Source: Bryobacterales bacterium (GTDB lineage Bacteria > Acidobacteriota > Terriglobia > Bryobacterales > Bryobacteraceae). From it: 50,059 nucleotides of DNA. Under the pieces are notes generated by a model. The model was not told the DNA's origin, searched no databases, and saw only the letters and a program-made list of their open reading frames with translations. Positions 2,295 through 40,002 of this stretch are shown here, one piece after another. Position 1 is the stretch's first letter, and the number at the start of each line of letters is the position of its first letter. The translations under genes and the position numbers were made by a program. The stretch spans positions 1 to 50,059 of the forward strand of contig JANXXL010000062.1 in assembly GCA_025350625.1 (NCBI GenBank), given 5' to 3'.

Positions 2295-2503
2295 CGAAAG
2301 TTAACGGAGCGGCACAGGGAAATTCCAGGTCATGAGCAAGGACGGATTGTGAGCCGACTATAGGAAGATTGGCCTCGCTATTGTCCCACCTCAGTCAGGA
2401 TCGCTCGCATGTAATGCGTAGTGTTCGTTCAGCAACTCCCGAGAAACGCCGCTCCGTTTCCCGTGCTGTCGATATCCGGGTAAGGGTATGGGAGCCCGCC
2501 ACA

Positions 2504-3436
2504 ATGAAAACTCGAAATCGGAAGCACGCCAAGACCATCTTGCGCTTGGCTGACCTTGAACATGCGAAATCTGCTGTTCTGAATAGCCTGGCATCACCCG
2601 AATCTCGGCGTTCGTATGAATTCGCAAACTTCGTCGAATGGTACTGCTCAGAGCCTCGGCTCGCCCTGAACCGAATCGTCGTGACTCGGTACAGAATGCA
2701 ATTGGAGCAATTTCGCTTGGCTCCATCGACGATCAATCAGCGGCTGGCAGCCGTGCGCCGTCTCGCTTATGAAGCCTCCGACGCAGGCTTGCTGAGCCCC
2801 GAACTCGCCGCAGGAATACGTCGAGTCAAAGGTGCGAAGCAACTCGGCGTCCGCCTCGGCAACTGGCTCACCGCCGACGAGGGTCGCGCTCTGGTGAACG
2901 CGCCAACGTCGGAAACTCTGCGCGGCAAGCGAGACCGTGCGATTCTCGCTGTCCTCCTCGGCTGCGGCCTGCGTCGGTCCGAATTGGTTCATCTTAGCGT
3001 GGAGCATCTCCAGCGCAGGGAAGACCACTGGGCGCTCGTCGACCTCGTCGGAAAAGGTGGGCACATTCGGACGATACCGGTCCCCCAATGGGTGAAAACG
3101 CGAATTGACGAGTGGACCCAGGCGTCGGGTACTACGTCTGGGCGGTTGTTCCGGTCCATCAATAAGAACGGCATCGTCTGGGGAGAGGGTCTGACGGAGA
3201 AGGTGGTCTGGTATGTGGTCAAGAATTTCGCGAAAACCGTCGGCATCGAGAAGGTCGCGCCCCACGATTTGCGCCGCACGTGCGCCCGGCTCTGTCACGT
3301 GTCCGGCGGCGAACTTGAACAAATCCAGTTCCTCCTCGGGCACGTTTCGGTCCAGACAACCGAGCGGTATCTTGGATGCAAACAGAAGATTCGTGACGCC
3401 GTAAACGATCGGATCGGAATCGAGCCGCCGGAGTAG
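2504..3436 (+). CDS. Tyrosine recombinase / phage-type integrase
   Basis: A 310-residue site-specific recombinase with the SAM-like core-binding domain (about residues 20-105) and a C-terminal catalytic domain. All signature residues are visible: Arg in GCGLRRSE (about 147), HDLRR (His254, Arg257), LLGH (His280) and the nucleophile Tyr in ERYL (289), so it should be active. The start at 2504 is chosen because GGGAG precedes it by 9 bases; an open frame extends back to 2369. It resembles XerC/D-like and integron or phage integrases, but no excisionase, attachment repeats or phage genes are adjacent, so its substrate is unknown. It may be a remnant of an integrated element or a domesticated recombinase. 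Confidence 0.85.
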   Translation: MKTRNRKHAKTILRLADLEHAKSAVLNSLASPESRRSYEFANFVEWYCSEPRLALNRIVVTRYRMQLEQFRLAPSTINQRLAAVRRLAYEASDAGLLSPELAAGIRRVKGAKQLGVRLGNWLTADEGRALVNAPTSETLRGKRDRAILAVLLGCGLRRSELVHLSVEHLQRREDHWALVDLVGKGGHIRTIPVPQWVKTRIDEWTQASGTTSGRLFRSINKNGIVWGEGLTEKVVWYVVKNFAKTVGIEKVAPHDLRRTCARLCHVSGGELEQIQFLLGHVSVQTTERYLGCKQKIRDAVNDRIGIEPPE

Positions 3437-3852
3437 ATGCCGACTTCACGGGATCGATGATACCTACTCGAGCTTTCTCCGAGTCGCCGACAATACGTCC
3501 GCTATCCGGAAATTCACTGCAATGGAGGCTGCAGTCCTGCCTCCGGAGAGGCGACATGGGATTCAAGCGGCAAGAAATATGCTCCAACTTCAGTCCAACG
3601 GGTATATCATTGCCCCAGCCGGGAGGTCATACTGGAAATTCCGGGTAACTTCGTTTTGAAACGCCTGAGTTCTGATCACAACCTCCCAGTGGATCTGTTC
3701 CCGCGCCGTCAGCCGCTCATTGAAGTAGGATAGCAAGAGAAACAAATGCGAAAGAACCGAGCGAAACAGCAAAGTGTTGGCCCGCTCAACATGCGAAGCG
3801 GATTCGCATTATACTGAATTCCTAGTAGCGCGTGCAGAAGGAGGCAACAGTG
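3437..3852. other. Intergenic region with candidate promoter for the peroxidase gene
   Basis: About 415 bases with no supported gene. The right part contains a -10-like TATACT (3810-3815) without a convincing -35 hexamer. The left part, just after the integrase, shows no obvious att-type repeat. Confidence 0.35.
3838..3844 (+). promoter_or_regulatory. Strong Shine-Dalgarno site
   Basis: AAGGAGG lies 8 bases upstream of the ATG at 3853 and fixes that codon as the start of the di-heme peroxidase. An in-frame GTG at 3832 would place this motif inside the coding region. Confidence 0.8.
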
Positions 3853-5046
3853 ATGAAAAGTAAATTCCGTGAATTTTTGTTCGAAGCGAAACACCGTACC
3901 GGACTGCTGGTCGCAGCAGCTACGGTCGCCGTATCCCTTTACATGGGAGTTGGCGCCGTTGCACAAAGTAAAAGTACGTTATCGGCGCTGCCGCCGACTC
4001 CGCAGGCGCCCAAAGATAACCCGACGACCCCAGCAAAAGTTGCGCTGGGAAAGCTGCTGTTCTGGGACCCGCTTTTGTCGGGACCCCAAGACGTAGCCTG
4101 CGCGTCGTGCCATCATCCGCAAAATGGCTATGCGGAGGACCGCGACCTGTCGCTCGGCGTCACGAGCATCGGACTGGGCAAGAGCCGGCACCAATCGCCC
4201 GGCAGTACGATTCCGATCGTCAAACGCAATAGTCCGACGCTTCTGAACATTGCTTTCAGCGGCAGCGATCAATCGGGCAGCTACGACCCGGCGACTGCGC
4301 CGATGTTCTGGGACATGCGCGTCAAGAGCCTCGAAAAGCAGGCGCTCGAACCGCTCAAGGCGCTTGAGGAAATGCGAGAGAACACCTACCCGGAGGGGGA
4401 TGAGGCTGTCGCGAAAGTGGTGGCGAAGCTCCAGGCCAACGCCGAGTACCGGAGGCTGTTCGCCGGCGCCTTCGGCGGTAAACAGCCGGTCAGCGCGGAG
4501 AACCTGGGCAGGGCGATAGCGGCGTTCGAGCGTACGCTGCTGGCCAATAACTCGCCGTTCGACCGCTACATGCGCGGCGACCGCAGCGCCATGACGGAGG
4601 AACAGGTCAGGGGAATGCAGCGCTTCGAGAGCGTCGGGTGCGTCAAGTGCCACAGCGGGCCCATGTTCTCCGATTACAAACTGCATGTCATGGGCATACC
4701 CGACAACCCCGCTCTGCCCGCCTCCGACGATGGCGCGGAGAAGACCTATGCCTTTCGCACGCCGACGCTGCGAAACCTCAACTTTACCGCCCCCTACGAG
4801 CACAATGGCATGTTCCCGACGCTGAGCGCCGTCGTGGGGTTCTATGAAGACGCCAGCGGCGGGCGCTCCCGGAACCCGAACGTCAGCCCCGAGAAGCTCG
4901 ATCCGCTGCTTCGCGAGTTGAAGGACTTCGACGAGGAGGACGTGGATCTGGTCGAGTTTTTAAGGGCTCTGAGCGATGACAAGTTCGACCGGACGATCCC
5001 CGAGCGCGTACCGAGCGGCCTGCCCGTCGGCGGAAAAATCCAATGA
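3853..5046 (+). CDS. Di-heme cytochrome c peroxidase / MauG family protein
   Basis: The 397-residue product belongs to the CcpA/MauG family, periplasmic di-heme enzymes that reduce hydrogen peroxide or carry out long-range protein oxidation. A long charged N-terminus with a hydrophobic segment (about residues 17-38) serves as signal peptide or anchor. Two haem c motifs are visible: CASCH (83-87) and CVKCH (263-267), with family segments GKLLFWDPLLSG, FWDMRVKSLE, AAFERTLL and TLRNLNFTAPYEHNG. The second haem domain ends with the usual LVEFLRALSD helix. Whether it is a true peroxidase or a MauG-like oxidase cannot be told. It is followed after 79 bases by a secreted-protein gene on the same strand. 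Confidence 0.88.
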   Translation: MKSKFREFLFEAKHRTGLLVAAATVAVSLYMGVGAVAQSKSTLSALPPTPQAPKDNPTTPAKVALGKLLFWDPLLSGPQDVACASCHHPQNGYAEDRDLSLGVTSIGLGKSRHQSPGSTIPIVKRNSPTLLNIAFSGSDQSGSYDPATAPMFWDMRVKSLEKQALEPLKALEEMRENTYPEGDEAVAKVVAKLQANAEYRRLFAGAFGGKQPVSAENLGRAIAAFERTLLANNSPFDRYMRGDRSAMTEEQVRGMQRFESVGCVKCHSGPMFSDYKLHVMGIPDNPALPASDDGAEKTYAFRTPTLRNLNFTAPYEHNGMFPTLSAVVGFYEDASGGRSRNPNVSPEKLDPLLRELKDFDEEDVDLVEFLRALSDDKFDRTIPERVPSGLPVGGKIQ

Positions 5047-9896: not shown

Positions 9897-11432
9897 TTAT
9901 TCTTGAGGGATCTGAAACTTCCAGGAGGACTCGCTGGCACTACGCTGCTCCCACTGGCGGCGTTGGTCCGTCATCATGTTCGCGCGTGCGTCCCGCGCGG
10001 CTTGTTCAGCGGCGATCCTGCGAATGAGTTCGTCGATCTTCTCCTTTTGGCCCGACCGGTAGACCGTCATCTTCGGCTCAAAGGCATTCGGGCCGGTGTC
10101 GGCAACTAGGCCTTCTTCCTTGATGTCGGCGAAGAAGGCCTTCATGGAATAGAAATCTTTGGTAAGGATCGGATTGAACTTGTGGTCGTGACACTCGGCG
10201 CAGCCGAAGGTGCTGCCCAGCCAGTTGGCGCCGATGGCGCGCACGCGGTCGGCTCCGTATTTGGCCCAATATTCTTTGGGCTGCAATCCGCCTTCCGCAG
10301 ATGTGCGGCCCATGCGGTTGTAGGCCGAGGCGATCTTCTGTTCGCTGGTTTGTTCGGGAGTCGCGTTGGGCATCAGGTCGCCGGCAAGCTGCTCGCGCGT
10401 GAATTCGTCGAACGGCTTATTGTTGAGCAGCGCGCGCAGGACGTAATCGCGATAAGGCCACGCGGGGCGCTCGCCGTCGCTGTGGTATCCGGCGGAATCC
10501 GCATAGCGCACGGCATCGAGCCAGGGTACGGCCTGGTGCTCGGCGTATGCCTGCGAGGCCAGGAGGCGGTCGACGACTTTCTCGGACGCGTCCGCTGACT
10601 TGTCTTTAACGAAAGCTTCGATCTGCGCGGGCTCCGGAGCGAGACCGGTGAGATCGAGTGTCACTCGCCGGAGCAGCGTGCGGCGATCGGCTGCGGGCGA
10701 GGGCTGCAAGCCTTCCTTGGCGAGCCGCGCCCGGATGAACGCGCCGATAGGATTCCGTGCCGAAGCAAGGGCAGGCACCGTCGGCCGCGCGACCGGCTGA
10801 TACGACCAGTGCCCTTAGTAGCGTGCTCCCTCGGCGATCCAGCGGCGGAGGGTTTCCTTTTCCGTGGGCGTCAGCGTGCGGTTGGCGGATGCAGGCGGCA
10901 TCACCCGCGCGTCGGTCGCAAATATGCGCTGGATGATTTCGCTCTGATCCGGATCGCCGGGAACAATTGGAGTGCCGCGAGCTTTCGGTTTCAGCGCTTC
11001 GTCGCGAAGATCGAGCCGCATATCGGCCATGCGGGAACTGACGTCGGGTCCATGGCAGCTAAAGCAGGTGCGCGACATGATGGGACGGATGTCGCGGTTG
11101 AAGCTCACGGGACCCGATAGCGGCGCTGCACTCGATGCCGCGGTGGAAACACGGCTAACGGGTTGGGTATCATGAGCGCCTAAATTCTTTACCAGGTAGG
11201 CAATGATCGGTTCGATGTCATCGGGGTTGAACGAAGCTCCCTCTTCGATCATCTGGCGGACGGCGATGCGCCAGCCTGCTTCGGTAAGCTTGAGTGCCAC
11301 AATGCGATCGGCGGTATGGCAGGTGGTACAGGCGTTGACGACAACGTCTTTACCGGCGCCTTCGGGAAAGTCCGCCGCGATCGCGGAGAAGGTGCATAAA
11401 AGCCCCAACAGAGATGCGGACAGGGATCGCAT
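9897..11432 (-). pseudogene. Planctomycete-type cytochrome (PSCyt1/PSCyt2) gene, broken by an in-frame stop and truncated
   Basis: Reading from 11432, a signal peptide is followed by haem motifs CTTCH and CFSCH and the MPPASANRTLTPTEKETLRRWI segment of PSCyt1. An in-frame TAA (10815-10817) then interrupts the sentence after EGAR-Tyr. The same frame resumes at once with GHWSYQPVARP and the DUF1549 (PSCyt2) domain, including LRRVTLDLTGL, a WLDAVRYADSAGYHSDG block and CAECHDHKFNP. Intact relatives are one protein and continue into a C-terminal DUF1553 domain, which is missing here, where the frame ends near 9897. The gene is therefore broken twice. Alternatives are a recent point mutation, a sequencing error, or translation as two pieces (205 and up to 293 residues). 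Confidence 0.75.
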
Positions 11433-31811: not shown

Positions 31812-32297
31812 ATGAAGCGCAATTCGAATGTGGCGGCGCTGGCGCTCGCGGCGCTAACAGTCTGGGACCTCAACGCTCTAGGGACCGGTCAACCGATCGC
31901 CTATTCGCACAAGGTCCATATTGGGGCTGGCCTGCAATGTCTGGATTGCCACAGCGGCGCGGATGTCAGTGCACGTGCCACACTTCCATCCGTTAACAAG
32001 TGCATGTTATGCCACGCCAAGATCGCCACGAATGCGCCGGAAATCAAAAAGGTTGCCGGGTATGCCGCCGCCAGGCGCGAGATCCCGTGGGAGCGCGTCT
32101 ATGGTTTCGACTCATCCGCGTTAGTGAAGTTTCGACATTCTCCACACTTCCGGGCCAAAATCGCATGCGCTAAATGTCACGGAGACATGGCGCAGGCGAC
32201 TACCGCGCAGCTTCTCGTGAAGCACACGATGGGAACATGTCTAAGTTGCCATCGCCAGAATCACGCTTCGGAGGACTGCGCGACATGTCACCACTAA
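31812..32297 (+). CDS. actA: Pentahaem c-type cytochrome (ActA-like)
   Basis: The 161-residue exported protein has five CxxCH motifs (about residues 43, 64, 119, 143 and 156) and a short signal-like N-terminus. Histidines before several motifs (SHKVHIG, RHSPHF, VKHTMG) can serve as axial ligands, so the haems are probably bis-His, as in the c7/class III-like cytochromes and the ActA/QrcA subunit. In alternative complex III this subunit takes electrons from the Fe-S protein to external carriers. It is the first gene of a six-gene run, 34 bases before the molybdopterin-fold gene. An upstream in-frame ATG at 31800 is immediately stopped, which confirms this start. Confidence 0.85.
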   Translation: MKRNSNVAALALAALTVWDLNALGTGQPIAYSHKVHIGAGLQCLDCHSGADVSARATLPSVNKCMLCHAKIATNAPEIKKVAGYAAARREIPWERVYGFDSSALVKFRHSPHFRAKIACAKCHGDMAQATTAQLLVKHTMGTCLSCHRQNHASEDCATCHH

Positions 32298-32331
32298 CCC
32301 TTCCTGGACTTCCCGCGAGAACGAGTTAACC

Positions 32332-34482
32332 ATGGATCGCCGAGTATTTTTTCGTATCCTCTCTACTAGTTCCGCCGCACTGACTACTGGCTGCGGAACG
32401 GGCACCCGGCAATTGCTACCGTTGCTGATACCGGAACAGCAGTTGATACCCGGGGAAGAACAGTGGCATTCGTCCGTCTGCACCAGTTGCGGCGCAGGTT
32501 GCGGGACGCTGGTTCGCGTAATGGAAGGGGAGCGCGTTATCAGCGACCAAGGTCAACCGGTACGGGAGCGCGTCGCCGCGATCAAGAAAATCGAAGGTAA
32601 TCCGCTTGACCCCATCAGTGGCGGAAAACTTTGCGCCAAGGGGCAGGCCGCGGTGCAATCGCTCTATCATCCGGACCGTTTGCGCGGCCCCATGCAGCGT
32701 ACAGGGGAACGAGGCAACGGCCAATTTACGTCTATCACCTGGGACGCTGCGCTGGCCTTTGCGGCCGAGAAAATCGGCAAGGTTCGTGCCGGGGCCCCCG
32801 GTAAGATCGTTTTGCTCACCAGCGGAATTGTAGGGTCGCGATCCGCGGCGCTCGAGCGGTTCGCGAAGGCGCTGAATGCCGCGTCCCCCGTCGTTTGCTC
32901 CATTACGGATCATCCAGTGGAGCGAACGGCGGCCGCGATGGTATTCGGTTGGACAGGCCAGCCCGTCTATGACCTCGCCAACGCGGATTTTGCGTTAGGA
33001 GTCGGCGCGGATTTTCTTGGTGGATGGACGTCTCCGGTTTACTACGCGCGCCAGTTTGGCAGTTTTCGCCAGGGGCGTAAGAACGTGCGTGGACGTCTGG
33101 TGCAAGCAGAATCCCGCCTCTCCATCACGGCATCGTCAGCGGACAGTTGGTTGCCACTACGGCCTGGCACCGAGCCACAATTACTGGCCGCCGTCGGCCG
33201 GCTTCTCATCGATAAACGACTGGCACGCAATCTAAAAGACGTTCCTAAAGCGGCGGCCGACGTTTTCCGTGGCGCCGATGTGAAGACACTGCTCGAGACT
33301 TGCAGGCTAGAAGAAAAACGCGTCCATGAAGTAGTGCAGGAACTGGGTGAATCCAAGGCGCCGCTCGTGATCGGAGGAGCGTCGGTTCTACAAACAAACT
33401 CTCTGGATGCGTTGATCGCATCCCACTACATCAACGTCATGCTCGGCAACGTAGGTAGGCCGGGCGGAGTCCTGGCACCTGGACCGGTCGCCCTGGCTCC
33501 CGCCAACAATTACCGGGTGACCGAAGCGCTAAGGAACGCGCAAGTGGCGCTCCTCATCGATACCGATCCCGCATACCTGTTGCCGGCCGCAAGCGGATTT
33601 AAAGCAGCGCTAAAACAGATGGAAACAGTCATCAGTTTTGGTTCGTTCATGGATGACTCCACGGCATGGGCGGACCTGATTTTGCCTGACCATGATGCGC
33701 TTGAGTCTGAGCTTGCGCTAGTGCCCGCGGTCTCCAGGAGCCGGGCAATCGCGGCGAGTAGCCCATTCATTCGTCCGCTCTACGATACGCGGCCAGTCGA
33801 GAACACGCTGGCGAATCTTGCGGGAAAGATGAACATCTCTTATGAACCCCTAGGGGTGACGGAATTTGTAAAGCCTTTTGAGAGCGGGGATCTGACGGTT
33901 GATGAAATTCTTCGCCAAGGTGGCGTGTGGGAAGAGGCGATCGAAGGCGGAGCGCGGGTGCCCGAGGTACGCGCTGCCAAGTTTGATATTTCCGCGATGG
34001 GTGCCCGCGACGATGCGACGCTCTTCCCGTTGGAATTCCAGCCGTATACCTCGCTTCAGTACCACGACGGCTCGGCGGCGCACCTTCCATGGATGCAGGA
34101 ATTGCCCGATCCGGTTTCCAGTTCTATTTGGGGGCTTCCGGTGGAGCTGGATCCGAAAACGGCTGCGGGCCTGCGTGTTTCTAACGGTGATATGGTGCGC
34201 GTTGAATCGCCGCATGGGACCATCGATGCCCCAGCCTACGTGCATCCGGGCGCTATTCCGGGCGTGGTCAGCATGCCTATCGGCGATGGACACACTCATT
34301 TCGGCCGCTATGCTTCCGGCCGCGGTGCAAATCCGCTTTCGATCTTGGCTCCGCTGTATGAAACCTCTACGGGAGCTCTGGTCCTAGGTGGTACGCGAGT
34401 GAAGATTACGCGCCTGAGTGGCCCTAAGGGGTGGATCCAATTTTCCACGCCAGACCGCGAAACAAGAGACATTCACCGCTGA
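32332..34482 (+). CDS. actB: Molybdopterin-oxidoreductase-fold subunit (ActB N-terminal part / QrcB-like)
   Basis: The 716-residue protein begins with a twin-arginine-type leader (DRRVFF) and a possible lipobox Cys (about 21). Cysteines 50, 53, 57 and 101 (CTSCGAGC, then KLCAKGQ) match the [4Fe-4S] site of molybdopterin oxidoreductases, followed by GNPLDPISGGKLC and the large alpha/beta domains to a C-terminal molydopterin-dinucleotide-type barrel (VSMPIGDGHTHFG). In alternative complex III the homologous ActB N-half carries no molybdenum cofactor; here cofactor status is unknown. Unlike ActB, the Fe-S half is a separate next gene. SD GAGAACGAG precedes the ATG. Confidence 0.85.
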   Translation: MDRRVFFRILSTSSAALTTGCGTGTRQLLPLLIPEQQLIPGEEQWHSSVCTSCGAGCGTLVRVMEGERVISDQGQPVRERVAAIKKIEGNPLDPISGGKLCAKGQAAVQSLYHPDRLRGPMQRTGERGNGQFTSITWDAALAFAAEKIGKVRAGAPGKIVLLTSGIVGSRSAALERFAKALNAASPVVCSITDHPVERTAAAMVFGWTGQPVYDLANADFALGVGADFLGGWTSPVYYARQFGSFRQGRKNVRGRLVQAESRLSITASSADSWLPLRPGTEPQLLAAVGRLLIDKRLARNLKDVPKAAADVFRGADVKTLLETCRLEEKRVHEVVQELGESKAPLVIGGASVLQTNSLDALIASHYINVMLGNVGRPGGVLAPGPVALAPANNYRVTEALRNAQVALLIDTDPAYLLPAASGFKAALKQMETVISFGSFMDDSTAWADLILPDHDALESELALVPAVSRSRAIAASSPFIRPLYDTRPVENTLANLAGKMNISYEPLGVTEFVKPFESGDLTVDEILRQGGVWEEAIEGGARVPEVRAAKFDISAMGARDDATLFPLEFQPYTSLQYHDGSAAHLPWMQELPDPVSSSIWGLPVELDPKTAAGLRVSNGDMVRVESPHGTIDAPAYVHPGAIPGVVSMPIGDGHTHFGRYASGRGANPLSILAPLYETSTGALVLGGTRVKITRLSGPKGWIQFSTPDRETRDIHR

Positions 34483-34503
34483 TGGGCGCGGATAGGAGAA
34501 CAC

Positions 34504-35190
34504 ATGCAAAATAGCTGGGGAATGGCGATCGACCTTGATCGGTGCACCGGGTGCGAAGCTTGCGTGGTCGCGTGCCATGCCGAAAATAATTTGCCGCTCT
34601 CAAGCCCTGAGCAAGCCGAGAAAGGCCGCACGGCGCACTGGATTCGCATCGACCGCTATTATGAGGGTGAATTTCCGGACGTGAAAGTGAAGTATCGTCC
34701 CGTGCTGTGCCAGCAATGCGATAACGCGCCTTGCGAGCCGGTTTGCCCAACCTATGCGACCTATCACAATCCTGAAGGATTGAATGTTCAGGTATACAAC
34801 CGTTGCGTTGGAACATTCTATTGCGCTAACAATTGCCCTTACACCGTACGCTTCTTTAACTGGTTTGCGCCGGAGTGGCCCGAGCCCCTGCAGTTGCAGC
34901 ATAATCCGGATGTCTCGATTCGCCCGGCTGGGGTCATGGAGAAATGCACGTTCTGCGTGCAACGGATTCAGCGGGGCAAGCGAAACGCCGCAGAAGAGAA
35001 TCGTCCGCTGCAGGATGGAGAGATTCAGCCCGCATGCGTGCAATCCTGTCCAGCGGAGGCCATGGTGTTTGGTAACCTGGCGGATCCTGAAAGTAAAGTT
35101 TCCGGACTTGCGCGCAGCGGACGGTCGACGCAGTTGTTAGGAGAGTTAGGCACCAAACCAAAAGTGTTCTATCTGGAAAAGGCCAAGTAG
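34504..35190 (+). CDS. Four-cluster ferredoxin subunit (ActB C-terminal part / QrcC-like)
   Basis: The 228-residue Fe-S protein has three complete [4Fe-4S] cysteine sets: 14/17/20/24, 69/72/77/81, and 148/151 with 178/182. The fourth set is 101/107/111, where the expected Cys is replaced by Thr in CVGTFYC. That gives fifteen cysteines, consistent with three [4Fe-4S] and one [3Fe-4S] cluster, as in the ActB Fe-S part. Here it is an independent protein, closer in organisation to Psr/Qrc subunits. AGGAG sits close before the ATG, and the stop codon abuts the next gene's ATG. It carries electrons between the NrfD quinol subunit and the haem/molybdopterin subunits. Confidence 0.88.
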   Translation: MQNSWGMAIDLDRCTGCEACVVACHAENNLPLSSPEQAEKGRTAHWIRIDRYYEGEFPDVKVKYRPVLCQQCDNAPCEPVCPTYATYHNPEGLNVQVYNRCVGTFYCANNCPYTVRFFNWFAPEWPEPLQLQHNPDVSIRPAGVMEKCTFCVQRIQRGKRNAAEENRPLQDGEIQPACVQSCPAEAMVFGNLADPESKVSGLARSGRSTQLLGELGTKPKVFYLEKAK

Positions 35191-36510
35191 ATGGCAGTAA
35201 TAACCCCCGAGCTATTACCTTATGAAAAAATTCGGGACGATCTTTTTCACCCGCTTTCCGGTGGCGGCCGGGCATACTGGATTACCCTTCTGACGGCGTT
35301 ATCGGTCGTCATTCTTGGCGGCGTGGCATGGTCCATCCAGATCCGCAACGGTATGGGTGTCACGGGACTGAACCGGCCGGTTTTTTGGGGCTTCTACATC
35401 GTTAATTTCGTTTTTTGGATCGGCATCTCACACGCTGGAACCTTGATCTCGGCGATTCTGCGGCTTACCGATGCGACGTGGCGCAAACCCGTTACTCGAG
35501 CGGCGGAAGCGATCACGGTTTTTTGCCTTATGATCGGCGGGATGTTCCCGATCATCCACTTAGGGCGCTCTTGGCGATTTTACTGGCTGATTCCATACCC
35601 CAATGCGCGCTTATTGTGGCCGAACTTCCGCTCGCCCTTGTTGTGGGATCTGACGGCCATCCTCACGTACCTTACTGGCAGTCTGATCTATCTTTACTTG
35701 CCGCTGATTCCAGATATGGCTCAGCTTGCGGAACATAATGTCCCGTGGCGCAGAAAATTGTATCGAGCGCTTTCGCTTGGCTGGACCGGCAGTGATCGCG
35801 AATGGCAGGCGCTTGAACGTGCCATAAAGTTGATGAGCTGCATCATTCTTGCGGTGGCCATCTCGGTTCACACCGTGGTCGCGTGGGACTTCGCTATGTC
35901 CATTGCTCCCATGTGGCACAGCACTATTTTTGGCCCCTATTTCGTCGTGGGCGCAATCTTCAGCGGGATCGCTGCGCTGTTGCTGGTGTTGGGCGTGCTC
36001 CGGAGGGCGTTGGGCTTGGACTTATATCTAACCAAGCACCACTTCAATAATCTCTCCAAGCTCCTACTGTTAATGAGTCTGCTGTGGTTCTATTTCACGT
36101 TTGCCGAGTACCAGACCACTTGGTATGGCAACGAGCCCAATGAAATGGCGGTATTCGTATCGAAGATCCGCGGCCCGTATTCGCCGTTCTTTTGGGCTAT
36201 GGTGTTCTGTAATTTCATCGTTCCCTTCATTTTGTTGGGGATTCGCAGGTTGCGCAATATCAGTACGGCAATGATCAGCTCGGTATGTGTGCTTATTGGA
36301 ATGTGGCTGGAACGTTATCTTATCGTCGCGCCCACGCTGGGGAATCCCCGCATGATTGCAGCGTCCGGCGTCTACGCCCCGACTTGGGTGGAAATTTCCA
36401 TCACCGCTGCAACGTTCGCCGGGATGATTGTGCTGTATCTGCTGTTTTCCAAGTTGTTTCCCATTATTTCCGTTTGGGAATTTAAGCCCCATCCGGTGGA
36501 GGAAGATTAG
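35191..36510 (+). CDS. actC: NrfD-type quinol-oxidising membrane subunit (ActC)
   Basis: The 439-residue integral membrane protein has about ten hydrophobic helices. It includes GMGVTGLNRPVFWGFYIVNF, then WIGISHAGTLISAILRL and PIIHLGRSWRFYW, the signature ActC/NrfD text for quinol binding and electron transfer across the membrane. The start codon directly follows the upstream stop, so the gene is translationally coupled. In alternative complex III a second NrfD protein (ActF) accompanies it, and none is encoded here. The length fits ActC (about 450 residues). Confidence 0.9.
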   Translation: MAVITPELLPYEKIRDDLFHPLSGGGRAYWITLLTALSVVILGGVAWSIQIRNGMGVTGLNRPVFWGFYIVNFVFWIGISHAGTLISAILRLTDATWRKPVTRAAEAITVFCLMIGGMFPIIHLGRSWRFYWLIPYPNARLLWPNFRSPLLWDLTAILTYLTGSLIYLYLPLIPDMAQLAEHNVPWRRKLYRALSLGWTGSDREWQALERAIKLMSCIILAVAISVHTVVAWDFAMSIAPMWHSTIFGPYFVVGAIFSGIAALLLVLGVLRRALGLDLYLTKHHFNNLSKLLLLMSLLWFYFTFAEYQTTWYGNEPNEMAVFVSKIRGPYSPFFWAMVFCNFIVPFILLGIRRLRNISTAMISSVCVLIGMWLERYLIVAPTLGNPRMIAASGVYAPTWVEISITAATFAGMIVLYLLFSKLFPIISVWEFKPHPVEED

Positions 36511-36512
36511 AG

Positions 36513-37025
36513 GTGTATTTAATAGCCGAGTTTCAGGATCAGTCCGAATTAGAAGACGCAATCCAGGCATTGAAGGCGGAGGGTCTGGGCGTTCTCGACA
36601 TGGATTTGTTTTCGGAAGAGCCGGTGGAGTTTCGCCGGGGAATCCTGGATAGGCCCAGCCGTATGTCGCTGGTGGCGGTCTTGGGAGCGATCATAATGGG
36701 AGGCCTTGCGACCACGGGCGTTTACGCGGCACAGCACAACTATGCCTTGGTTACCGGCGGCATGCCGATCTTCTCTTTTTGGGGCTCGGGTGTGATCACT
36801 TACGAAACGACGATGATGGGCGCTATATTGTCCACATTCGGATGGTTTTTGTGGGAAAGCCGGCTGCTTCATAAGCGGGACAAGAGTGCGCCCGTACCAC
36901 TGGTCCCTCCGGGGTCGATGTGTCTGCGCATTCATTGTGCCGACAATCATATCGCAGGGCGCGCGGAGCGGATCCTGAATCATGCCGGTGCCGTAGCAAT
37001 CGAGAAGAAGGGTCCGCGTGAGTAG
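36513..37025 (+). CDS. actD: DUF3341 membrane subunit (ActD)
   Basis: The 170-residue protein belongs to DUF3341/ActD. A short soluble N-terminal domain precedes two transmembrane helices, with the motifs DMDLFSEEPVEF, LATTGVYAAQHNYALVTGG, then FWGSGVITYETTMMGAIL. In alternative complex III ActD is the helper membrane subunit of the complex. Start is GTG with GGAGGA upstream. The stop overlaps the next gene's start by 8 bases, coupling the two. Confidence 0.85.
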   Translation: MYLIAEFQDQSELEDAIQALKAEGLGVLDMDLFSEEPVEFRRGILDRPSRMSLVAVLGAIIMGGLATTGVYAAQHNYALVTGGMPIFSFWGSGVITYETTMMGAILSTFGWFLWESRLLHKRDKSAPVPLVPPGSMCLRIHCADNHIAGRAERILNHAGAVAIEKKGPRE

Positions 37026-37683
37026 AGCCCGCAGCAAAAGTCCGGCCTGTGGGGTTCTGCCGAAGATTTCGTTAATGATCTGCGCCGTCGCTTTAGGGCC
37101 GGCGCCGGCCGCAGAATTACCCGCTGGAAAAGGGCGCGAAACGTTTGCGAACGTCTGCACCAGCTGCCATGACGTGGACCTTGCACTGCAAATGCGCCAG
37201 ACACGCAGCGGCTGGACTAATATCATCAAATTGATGAAGGATATGGGTGCCGATGCCACTACCGCGCAATTCAATGAAATCATCGATTACCTTACTGAAC
37301 ATTTCGGCAAAGAAGCAACTGGCAAAGACTCGCCTCAGAGGAAGAAATCGGTCCCAGGTAGTTCGGTCAGCCCGGCTGTGCCCGAGAATCCTCAAGTCCG
37401 GCGCGTGCTGCCGTGGGATAAGAATCCGCTAAGAATTGGACAGACGCTCTACCGTGAGAACTGTGTCGTTTGTCATGATGTGGACGCGGAGAGCTCTAAA
37501 AAACTCGGACCCAGTTTCTATCATTTGTTCCAGCGAGAACAAATGCCACGTACGAAAATGAAACCGAGCCGCTCTTACGTGGCCGCTAAGATCCGCTCAG
37601 GCGGAAACGTCATGCCAGCATTCAGCAGGAAGTTGACGTCCAGCGAGATAAACGCGCTCATCGACTACCTAGAGTTCAAATAG
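37018..37683 (+). CDS. actE: Di-haem cytochrome c (ActE-like position)
   Basis: The 221-residue exported protein has two haem motifs, CTSCH (Cys47-His51) and CVVCH (Cys149-His153), in two cytochrome c-like modules joined by a Pro/Ser-rich linker. A Met in GGNVMPAFS is a plausible axial ligand for the second haem. ActE of alternative complex III is usually a mono-haem cytochrome; here two haems are visible, so it may combine ActE with an extra haem domain. The N-terminal module (RSGWTNIIKLMKDMGA) resembles the N-terminal part of the broken cytochrome gene at 11.4 kb. GTG start within the overlap with actD. Confidence 0.8.
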   Translation: MSRARSKSPACGVLPKISLMICAVALGPAPAAELPAGKGRETFANVCTSCHDVDLALQMRQTRSGWTNIIKLMKDMGADATTAQFNEIIDYLTEHFGKEATGKDSPQRKKSVPGSSVSPAVPENPQVRRVLPWDKNPLRIGQTLYRENCVVCHDVDAESSKKLGPSFYHLFQREQMPRTKMKPSRSYVAAKIRSGGNVMPAFSRKLTSSEINALIDYLEFK

Positions 37684-37956: not shown

Positions 37957-40002
37957 ATGCCAATACAAAACCCAAGAGATGTTCGATCCCGAGCAATTCT
38001 ACTTTCGCTCGCCAGCGGAATGGCTCTGTTAGTTGCGACGACGGCTGCGGCGGCCGATAAGGAAATCGCCACGGACGATCTCCAGCGCTCGCTCAGGCTG
38101 GATACCTATCGAATACTAGGCGATAGCGGCGCGGGGCGCGGCGAGAACATCTACTTCTTTAAGTGTTGGATGTGTCACAACCAATACGCCAAGAGCGCGC
38201 CCTTGTTGAAGGATCTCTATCAGCGCAAGAACCTGGTAGGGGGCGCCTCGGTCAACGACGATACCGTCAGCGCCAAAATTAAAGAAGGCGGTCCCGGCAT
38301 GCCGGCGTTTAAACACAGCCTGTCGGATTCCGATGTAGCGGATTTGCAAGCTTATTTCCACTCGGGGAAATGCTGCGCGGATGGTGAAAATCCGCCCCTG
38401 AACCCGGCGTACCGGGCGGAGACGCAAAAATGGCCGGTGCAGAGCGGCCTCACCGGCGGGGCTACCGGTGTCGTGCGGATCAAGAGCGGGGACTCGCCCG
38501 AAGGCATAGCCGTCCAGATCGTCGCACCGAGCGGTGTCCGAACCACCGTATACACCAACGCGGCGGGCAAATTTGAATTTCCCAGGATGCAAGCCGGCTC
38601 CTATACCTTGCGCATTGCCACGCCGGTGCCATTCAGGCCTTTCCGGCGCGATGCGGTTTCGATCGACGGCGATACCAAGCTTGACGACATCGTGCTCGAA
38701 AGGGTTGCCAACTCCGACAATCTGCCTGCCTCACCGGAACTGGAGTCCCAGTTGAGCAGCGCGGAGATCCTGTGGAACCTGCCGGGCACGGCAGAAGAAA
38801 AAGCCACGTTGCAGAAGAACTGCTCCGGGTGCCACTCCTGGCAGCAGATTTTCAGGAGCCGCTATGACGAACACGGCTGGAGCCTGATCGTCGACCGCAT
38901 GATGCACTTTAGCGGTACAGCGATTGCCGTGCGCAACCGGGCGATGTCGGATCCCGACCCTGAATACACGCTGCTCGTCAAATGGCTCTCGCGCATTCGC
39001 GGTCCGAACGCGCAGGACGCTCCGCTTCGCGTCTTTCCGCGTCCCCGCGGCCAGGCGACGAGAGTAGTCGTCACCGAATTCGAATTGCCGCGGCAATTGC
39101 TCATGCTCCACGACGCTGCCCTCGACCCCCAGGGTAACGTTTGGTACACCAGCCATAAGACCCGTTACGTCGGCAAAATGGATCCCAAGACGGGGATCTT
39201 CACCGACTACACGCTGCCGATGACACCCGGCGTCATGCCGGGAAGCCACCACGCCAAATTCGACAAGAACGGGATCGCCTGGATCTCGGAAAACTGGGCG
39301 CATCAGCTCAACCGGCTCGATCCGAAGACGGGAGATGTCAAGCAAGTCCGCATTGAAAGCAAGACTCCTCTCAACGCCCCCAGTTTCGGAAACTTTACGC
39401 TCGACGCCGACGGCTTTGTGTGGGACGCCCGCGCGAACCGCATTGTAAAAATGGATCCGGATACTGGCAAGGTCCTGAAGGAGTGGCCGCTGCAGGCCAA
39501 CAGCAGCTACGACAACACTATTTCTTACGATGGAAAATTTTGGGGAGGCAGCGGGCCGGCGAATTGGGGCAATACGGTCGAGATGCTGGAGATTGAGACC
39601 GGGAAAATCCTGAATTTGAACAGCGGCTCACACATGATGACCGCGAAACGCGGCGGCTTCGATCCCTCCGGAAATACCTGGTGGGGCGGAGCGGATGGCG
39701 CTCTCATCGAGCTTAATGCGAAGGAACAGCGCATTGATGAACATTGGCCCCCCATCGCCCCGCACCCCTACACCGACTTCTACGAAGCCATGCCGGACAA
39801 GAACGGCGAGATCTGGGCCGGCGTGCTGCACGGCCGCCAGATGCTTCGTTACAACCCCAAGACCGACCATTGGGTCGCGTACCAGATGCCCGAGCCGTTA
39901 TCCTACGACCGGCGAACCGTCATCGATACCTCCACCAAACCGGCAACCGTCTGGTATGTGGATTACAACGGCTACCTCGTCCGCGTTCAACCGCTGGAGT
40001 GA
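37957..40002 (+). CDS. Secreted fusion: haem c, carboxypeptidase-regulatory domain, haem c, Vgb-like beta-propeller
   Basis: The 681-residue exported protein has a signal peptide (about residues 12-33) and a cytochrome-like domain with CWMCH (Cys70-His74) and GGPGMPAFKH (Met ligand). A carboxypeptidase-regulatory (Ig-like) segment follows (GVVRIKSGDSPEG, then TNAAGKFEFPRMQAGSYTLRI, about 170-250), then a second haem motif CSGCH (289-293). A C-terminal seven-blade propeller (about 375-680) has Vgb/streptogramin-lyase-like repeats: HDAALDPQGNVWYTS, FDKNGIAWISENWAHQLNRL, PDKNGEIWAGVL. It follows the ACIII-like operon and may be co-regulated, though a 273-base gap separates them. Enzymatic activity of the propeller is not demonstrated. 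Confidence 0.85.
   Translation: MPIQNPRDVRSRAILLSLASGMALLVATTAAAADKEIATDDLQRSLRLDTYRILGDSGAGRGENIYFFKCWMCHNQYAKSAPLLKDLYQRKNLVGGASVNDDTVSAKIKEGGPGMPAFKHSLSDSDVADLQAYFHSGKCCADGENPPLNPAYRAETQKWPVQSGLTGGATGVVRIKSGDSPEGIAVQIVAPSGVRTTVYTNAAGKFEFPRMQAGSYTLRIATPVPFRPFRRDAVSIDGDTKLDDIVLERVANSDNLPASPELESQLSSAEILWNLPGTAEEKATLQKNCSGCHSWQQIFRSRYDEHGWSLIVDRMMHFSGTAIAVRNRAMSDPDPEYTLLVKWLSRIRGPNAQDAPLRVFPRPRGQATRVVVTEFELPRQLLMLHDAALDPQGNVWYTSHKTRYVGKMDPKTGIFTDYTLPMTPGVMPGSHHAKFDKNGIAWISENWAHQLNRLDPKTGDVKQVRIESKTPLNAPSFGNFTLDADGFVWDARANRIVKMDPDTGKVLKEWPLQANSSYDNTISYDGKFWGGSGPANWGNTVEMLEIETGKILNLNSGSHMMTAKRGGFDPSGNTWWGGADGALIELNAKEQRIDEHWPPIAPHPYTDFYEAMPDKNGEIWAGVLHGRQMLRYNPKTDHWVAYQMPEPLSYDRRTVIDTSTKPATVWYVDYNGYLVRVQPLE

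Follow-up and report, generated by a model that had tools for sequence, protein, structure and literature searches.

Relationship to described complexes

In Rhodothermus marinus, alternative complex III (ACIII; PDB 6F0K) has the canonical form of its family, with ActA, a fused ActB made up of B1 and B2 domains, ActC with its quinone site, ActD, a mono-haem ActE, ActF, a [3Fe-4S] signature and adjacent oxidase genes (PMC5928083). The subject of this analysis is a related six-gene operon at positions 31812-37683 of a 50,059-nucleotide stretch of contig JANXXL010000062.1 from a Bryobacterales bacterium (the window, contig C68 of a draft genome of 5.09 Mb in 417 contigs, with 89.2% completeness and 5.54% contamination). 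The operon shares ActA, the B1 and B2 domains, ActC, ActD, the [3Fe-4S] signature and the quinone site with the R. marinus complex and with the canonical ACIII encoded on contig C354 of the same genome, but differs from both in its divided ActB, the absence of ActF, a di-haem rather than mono-haem last cytochrome and the lack of neighbouring oxidase genes. The B1 domain is free of cofactors in R. marinus (PMC5928083) and has lost its cysteine motif in C354, whereas the motif is kept in the window. The window operon probably encodes an ACIII-type quinol:cytochrome c oxidoreductase of a split-B kind without ActF, present alongside the canonical ACIII of the same genome.

By description, a close published system is the ACIII of 47 Nitrospirales genomes, which has the order ActA-B1-B2-C-D-E and no ActF or ActG, and so agrees with the window in its list of subunits and split B; there the act genes almost always precede cytochrome bd-like oxidase genes, none of which is near the operon in the window, where the sixth cytochrome is di-haem (PMC12342949). 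In the ACIII of iron oxidisers (actAB1B2CDEF), B is likewise split and its B1 part carries a [4Fe-4S] motif, but ActF is included (PMC4643136), and the association of a split B with the absence of ActF is thus not universal. Caldithrix abyssi ACIII likewise lacks ActF and ActG, but its ActE is duplicated as separate mono-haem genes (PMC5317091), and in cluster 4 of the ACIII-like clusters in MBNT15, ActE is replaced by a multi-haem protein alongside ActABCD, with four haems as compared with two in the window (PMC9386147). The quinone reductase complex Qrc (QrcABCD) of sulfate reducers resembles the window in its separate molybdopterin-fold and Fe-S subunits, single NrfD protein and [3Fe-4S] cluster, but has only four subunits, with no ActD or ActE, and Asp120 in QrcD where the window has His (PMC13059093, PMC8076601); the window proteins also score under the cut-offs of the Qrc models. 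The novelty suggested for this layout in the first-pass annotation, made from the sequence alone, therefore does not hold, as a split B without ActF and ActG is published for Nitrospirales (PMC12342949) and loss of both proteins for Caldithrix (PMC5317091). Among the titles listed in literature searches, a result that does not prove absence, none concerned an acidobacterial split-B clade lacking ActF or its genus-specific di-haem sixth subunit. With its gene layout already known, the window is a fairly ordinary but well-supported addition, in which the extra-haem subunit is unusual.

Organization and subunits of the operon

The six open reading frames (ORFs) lie on the forward strand in the order ActA, ActB1, ActB2, ActC, ActD and a small c-type cytochrome, with intergenic gaps of 34, 21, 0 and 2 bp and a single 8-bp overlap (Table 1). 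Pfam assigns their products to the cytochrome c7/c3 type, molybdopterin oxidoreductase with an Fe4S4 domain, 4Fe-4S dicluster, NrfD, ActD and cbb3-type cytochrome c families, respectively, and CXXCH motifs number five in ActA and two in the sixth product. The packed six-gene operon, the B subunit divided between two ORFs where canonical ACIII has one fused protein, and the retained ActD were all noted beforehand and are confirmed. Promoter and terminator signals occurred at roughly the level of shuffled sequence.

Table 1. Coordinates and properties of the operon genes and the adjacent downstream gene
Feature	Position	Strand	Properties
ActA-like pentahaem c-type cytochrome	31812..32297	+	161 aa; 5 CXXCH; N terminus hydrophobic by eye
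ActB1, molybdopterin-fold	32332..34482	+	716 aa; N-terminal RR motif; lipobox-like Cys21; one [4Fe-4S] motif Cys50/53/57/101; Asp193 at PhsA Cys174 position
ActB2, four-cluster Fe-S protein	34504..35190	+	228 aa; 15 conserved Cys; Thr104 in place of PhsB 16th Cys ([3Fe-4S] signature)
ActC, NrfD family	35191..36510	+	439 aa; residues of the quinone site, and most in the two proposed half-channels, kept
ActD (DUF3341)	36513..37025	+	170 aa; Pfam PF11821 75.4 bits (cut-off 25.7); Glu98
Sixth subunit, di-haem cytochrome c	37018..37683	+	221 aa; C-terminal haem domain common to relatives; N-terminal haem domain SorB-like
Neighbour gene, membership in operon not established	37957..40002	+	681 aa; cytochrome c domain, carboxypeptidase-regulatory-like domain, Vgb-lyase-like propeller; two CXXCH

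In searches of known structures, the pentahaem ActA, itself a feature of ACIII, was closest to ActA of 6f0k (E 6.5e-24), with four ActA chains as the top matches, and ActB2 to the B2 half of 6f0k ActB (E 5.8e-80). ActC matched 6f0k ActC best (E 1e-93), ahead of 6f0k ActF (E 1.2e-13). Residues proposed to be functional in ActC (PMC5928083, with Ser164 from PMC8076601) were mapped through an alignment with R. marinus ActC, and 28 of 31 are identical in the window, including all ten of the quinone pocket and 18 of the 21 others, so that the pocket and most of the half-channel residues of ACIII are preserved. The B2 motifs correspond to three [4Fe-4S] clusters and one [3Fe-4S] cluster. The Thr that marks the latter is present in 65 of 72 aligned sequences (rows), the seven with Cys being the PhsB outgroup, five rows from other families and locus L146. 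Across these 72 rows, and by motif only, the window combines the ACIII features of a B1 without a molybdenum ligand and a B2 with this set of clusters. In B1, the lipobox-like Cys21 is found in 53/54 split and 12/12 fused rows, and the four cysteines of the [4Fe-4S] motif in 54/54 split and 8/12 fused rows; all four are lost in L022, L126 and L127, which are fused and carry COX1 within the stretch examined, and three are lost in L133.

ActD has been reported as seemingly exclusive to ACIII (PMC5928083). The window protein exceeds the PF11821 cut-off, and its Glu98 may be taken as the counterpart of the coupling Glu122 of R. marinus ActD; Glu occupies this position in 58 of 59 aligned ActD sequences. 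A phmmer search found no ActD structure in the PDB. Elsewhere in the genome (L005, C308:18104-18583), a pair of Gly-rich proteins (187 and 202 aa) is encoded, and the 3.5 kb examined there contains no act gene; the larger protein scores 29.7 bits with PF11821, over the cut-off; PF11821 alone may consequently over-call ActD.

The sixth subunit was compared with cytochromes of <400 aa encoded on the same strand within 8 kb of related loci. Its C-terminal haem domain is 44-56% identical to the mono-haem protein following actD in ten loci of the window clade and 65% identical to its di-haem counterpart in L088, a member of the same genus, with weaker matches in other groups. Nine loci of genus g250 (L115-L123) gave no match. 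The N-terminal haem domain aligns with that of L088 (46% over 81 residues) and elsewhere only with short stretches of the mono-haem proteins of L113 and L114 (34% over 59); NCBIfam gives a SorB-like match under the cut-off for this domain. The di-haem sixth gene noted at first thus stands for the window and L088, while the other ten of the 12 clade loci having the gene encode a mono-haem protein. The subunit also departs from the mono-haem lipoprotein ActE of canonical ACIII in that no lipobox was seen by eye, and it had no BLAST match to ActE of its own genome at E 1e-3.

Taken together, the 28/31 ActC residues, the [3Fe-4S] signature, Cys21 of B1, the absence of a molybdenum-ligand Cys and the ActD Glu place the complex in the ACIII family, and the split B, absent ActF and di-haem sixth subunit set it apart from canonical ACIII.

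Distribution of split and fused loci

A scan of genome contigs with B1 gave 16 loci, and the B1 query matched 96 of 399 genomes of the class at E 1e-40 or better, a count that includes weaker rows of fused ActB. Named relatives carrying the locus are Acidobacteriota metagenome-assembled genomes, two of them Terriglobia. Within the window genus, three of the 14 genomes listed have a match, which indicates patchy presence. The order A-B1-B2-C-D recurs in many relatives and is thus not a chance arrangement.

For locus counts, hidden Markov models (HMMs) of ActF (built from 12 proteins of the fused loci themselves), ActC and ActD were run on all ORFs of loci picked non-randomly from high-scoring rows. 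There were 61 split loci, or 59 without the repeats L150 and L152, and 50 of these extend at least 4.5 kb past B1. One ActC-type gene was found in all 50, ActF in none and ActD in 46. By comparison, ActF is present in 12 of 13 fused loci, 11 of which are from Acidobacteriota, and the remaining one (L135) ends 1.9 kb past ActB. COX1 occurs in the flank of a single split locus (L096, ~8 kb upstream); six fused loci were grouped as COX-type, COX1 lying within the examined stretch of only three (L022, L126, L127). Six loci were excluded from the split count as other families (L094, L103, L104, L105, L106, L132), as was L128 from a Cupriavidus plasmid, in which ActB reads as an 859-aa ORF and another, with ActF and COX1 present; if truly split, L128 would be a counter-example to the split B without ActF.

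Four split-B loci have no recognizable ActD (L090, L092, L097, L146), and the first three of these have an ActE-like cytochrome after ActC. L146 also lacks the B1 lipobox Cys as well as the [3Fe-4S] Thr, and may not be a group member. In L102 (genome G259), ActC lies ~3.9 kb farther from B1 than usual, with B2 separated from ActC by large ORFs of 591 and 615 aa; this looks like an insertion into the operon. L094 and L103 encode a different complex, of a four-haem protein, a molybdopterin-fold protein, an Fe-S protein and NrfD, with Asp and Val at the positions of ActC His139 and Asp253 and Cys at the 16th Fe-S ligand.

Phylogeny of the B and C subunits

Joined B1 and B2 were aligned with fused ActB in a tree of 63 rows with PhsA/PhsB as outgroup, 40 of which were used for a more careful tree; an ActC tree of 67 rows was rooted on ActF, with long branches flagged. 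Both exclude short or cut loci (L007, L013, L017, L032, L060, L135), and twelve more loci were removed from the B tree, and thirteen together with one ActF row from the ActC tree, as near-copies or odd ORFs. In the 40-row tree, fused ActB forms one clade (100/100), and the window pairs with L088 and then with family relatives and L006 (100/97 or better). Constraining the split rows to a single clade was weakly rejected (p-AU 0.033). L094 and L103 do not group with ACIII in the trees of B. In the ActC tree, by contrast, fused ActC is sister to all split rows, and these two other-family loci are nested among the latter. On the tree check proposed at the outset, the fused sequences of ActB and of ActC each make up a separate clade that does not include the window; the rows contain no Qrc sequence. 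These trees suggest that the split B may be the ancestral state.

Comparison with Qrc

The strongest alternative, which we nevertheless consider unlikely, is a Qrc-like cytochrome:quinone reductase working in reverse, which would take electrons from a periplasmic dehydrogenase or cytochrome and deliver them to the quinone pool by way of the di-haem subunit and ActA. The split B is a feature of Qrc, and on the QrcB model B1 scores 265 bits, while the genome's own canonical ActB reaches 74 and that of Paludisphaera 87. Against this, the QrcA, QrcB and QrcC scores (67.9, 264.9 and 249.4 bits) are all under the equivalog cut-offs of 180, 440 and 400. In a phylum sample of Acidobacteriota the QrcB model matched 370 of 396 genomes, with none over the cut-off. 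The fused ActB of L093 (G132:C56) reaches 323.5 on the same model, so that the QrcB score does not separate split from fused kinds. The intermediate character ascribed to the layout thus has some support from the B1 score above canonical ActB; the fused L093 scores higher still, and the ActC and ActD residues are of ACIII type. The position of QrcD Asp120 is His123 in the window ActC, which aligns with His139 of R. marinus ActC, and the presence of ActD also speaks against Qrc. After the [3Fe-4S] Thr of B2, the next Cys is directly preceded by a Tyr, which was matched by us to the essential QrcC Tyr113 that lies between two Cys ligands, but this Tyr is shared by the canonical ActB aligned with it. 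Genes for pyrroloquinoline quinone (PQQ) dehydrogenases are located upstream of L011 and L021, on the opposite strand, but there is none among the window neighbours scanned. Qrc sequences were sought without success: of 621 plasmid records with a B2 match, the 20 listed name none, and none occurred among the PDB matches listed.

ActF and oxidases in the same genome and in relatives

Within the whole window, the ActF HMM matches only the ActC gene and the COX1 query has no match. On contig C354, ActA, fused ActB, ActC, ActD, mono-haem ActE and ActF (C354:9858-11078) are followed by genes whose arrangement, together with BLAST matches at the Paludisphaera and Nitrobacter loci, identifies them as SCO, COX2, COX1 and COX3; COX1 is confirmed by Pfam, and COX3 is assigned from gene order alone. 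The absence of ActF and of a terminal oxidase, as first reported, therefore holds for the window contig but not for the genome, which also has two more COX1-family matches, a bd oxidase and a cytochrome b fragment. A whole-genome ActF search matched only C354 ActF, window ActC and C354 ActC. Because canonical ACIII is encoded on C354, the window complex is a second, parallel complex.

A canonical ACIII that borrows ActF from the unlinked C354 operon is a very improbable explanation, despite the ActF gene in the window genome and the occurrence of ActF elsewhere in six of seven family-f1 relatives searched (an edge fragment in the seventh) and in G654. C354 ActF and the ActD family were used to search sixteen relatives that carry the split operon; a highly divergent ActF could escape the ActF query. 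In eight genomes of genera g250 and g253 (G519, G565, G693, G716, G607, G622, G580, G507), of which G519 is a single contig of 6.19 Mb, it found the split ActC only, with one ActD-family match each; a long ActF-type match lies elsewhere in seven of the remaining relatives, and G625 has an edge fragment. The unlinked actF that had been raised as a possibility is accordingly present in the window genome, inside a separate canonical ACIII, and a separate one was not found in eight relatives with the split complex, so that the refuting condition set at the outset gives a mixed outcome. With no second NrfD protein in the window or, beyond the split ActC, in these eight genomes, the split complex apparently does not need ActF.

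Predicted function

An ACIII-like quinol:cytochrome oxidoreductase, as originally suggested, is the best reading of the sequence. Quinol would be oxidized at the periplasmic pocket of ActC, with electrons passing into the [3Fe-4S] cluster and along the five haems of ActA, and the small cytochrome, di-haem in the window, would hand them on to an acceptor in the periplasm, for example the cytochrome c pool. Two proton routes have been proposed for canonical ACIII; having a single NrfD subunit, the complex would retain no more than one of them.

Several observations weigh against this assignment. We infer the direction of electron flow, from quinol to cytochrome, from sequence, and three residues of the proposed channels, R196, D197 and Y323, are replaced by Ala, Glu and Thr in the window ActC; the R196 position is Ala, Gly or Ser in all 21 rows of the window clade and Arg in the remaining 32 split rows. 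B1 and B2 score higher on the Qrc models than the two canonical ActB tested, the trees include no Qrc, and no neighbour gene recurs across the whole group, recurrent clusters being mostly frame shadows or restricted to few genera. Asp at the QrcD Asp120 position also occurs in 2/32 other split rows, and the QrcD D120A mutation had only a marginal effect on growth (PMC13059093), both of which make this position a weak discriminator. Lastly, a PF13631 cytochrome b match is present in 11 of 11 close relatives searched, and in G519 it adjoins Rieske-like and octahaem proteins. The split complex is thus not the sole candidate complex III of these relatives, and the idea that it is the only one where ActF is missing was dropped.

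That B1 is instead the molybdenum subunit of a catalytic Psr/Arr-type enzyme acting on a periplasmic substrate is scarcely credible: it has a molybdopterin fold, a conserved [4Fe-4S] motif and ArrA as the top structural match of its AlphaFold model (ActB at ranks 17, 19, 24 and 30), but that model is of low confidence (mean pLDDT, predicted local distance difference test, 63.6), pentahaem ActA and ActD are ACIII parts, and the column of PhsA Cys174, presumably a molybdenum ligand, holds no fixed residue in 54 split rows (Asp 29, Gly 9, Ser 8, Glu 4, Ala 2, Pro 1, Asn 1, Cys 0), even though Asp, found in the window, is a molybdenum ligand in some enzymes.

For the ACIII-type complex itself, a tentative and rather doubtful evolutionary scheme can be drawn. 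The split-B form would be a physiologically separate class of ACIII with a single NrfD protein, keeping the ancestral separate B1 and B2 and a fifth cluster, a [4Fe-4S], in B1, with no ActF. Canonical ACIII would have arisen once by fusion of B and gain of ActF, losing the B1 cluster when tied to an oxidase, and the exit cytochrome of the window genus would have gained a second haem domain, hence serving a partner other than the oxidase supplied by the canonical ACIII of the same cell. Canonical ACIII is proposed, though not proven, to pump protons via both ActC and ActF, and a form that is widespread in nature and has ActC and ActD without ActF offers a ready comparison for the contribution of ActF; some genomes have no other ActD locus among those found. 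The contrast in Acidobacteriota between split loci without ActF and fused loci with it is also relevant to the evolutionary relationship of ACIII and Qrc.

Neighbouring genes and other loci

The gene downstream of the operon was not seen as a conserved neighbour at related loci. A multicopper oxidase is encoded near L009 and PQQ dehydrogenases near L011 and L021; neither type is found at the window. Cytochrome b-like genes were seen in three places: with an octahaem cytochrome and a Rieske-like protein, as one block with two such genes, in G519 (L176 4091-9614); with an octahaem gene, and no Rieske pattern seen, in G693 (L180 6995-11921); and as a fragment adjoining an octahaem gene on contig C3 of the window genome (L158 1713-4794).

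Elsewhere in the window, positions 10815-11432 (reverse strand) encode a cytochrome with two CXXCH, a PSCyt1 domain and a weak quinohemoprotein-type haem domain, which bears a distant likeness to the sixth subunit. A di-haem protein of the cytochrome c peroxidase/MauG type, a possible electron acceptor, is encoded at 3832-5046 (forward strand), 27 kb from the operon on the same contig, and a recombinase of the phage-integrase family at 2369-3436 (forward strand), close to the contig start.

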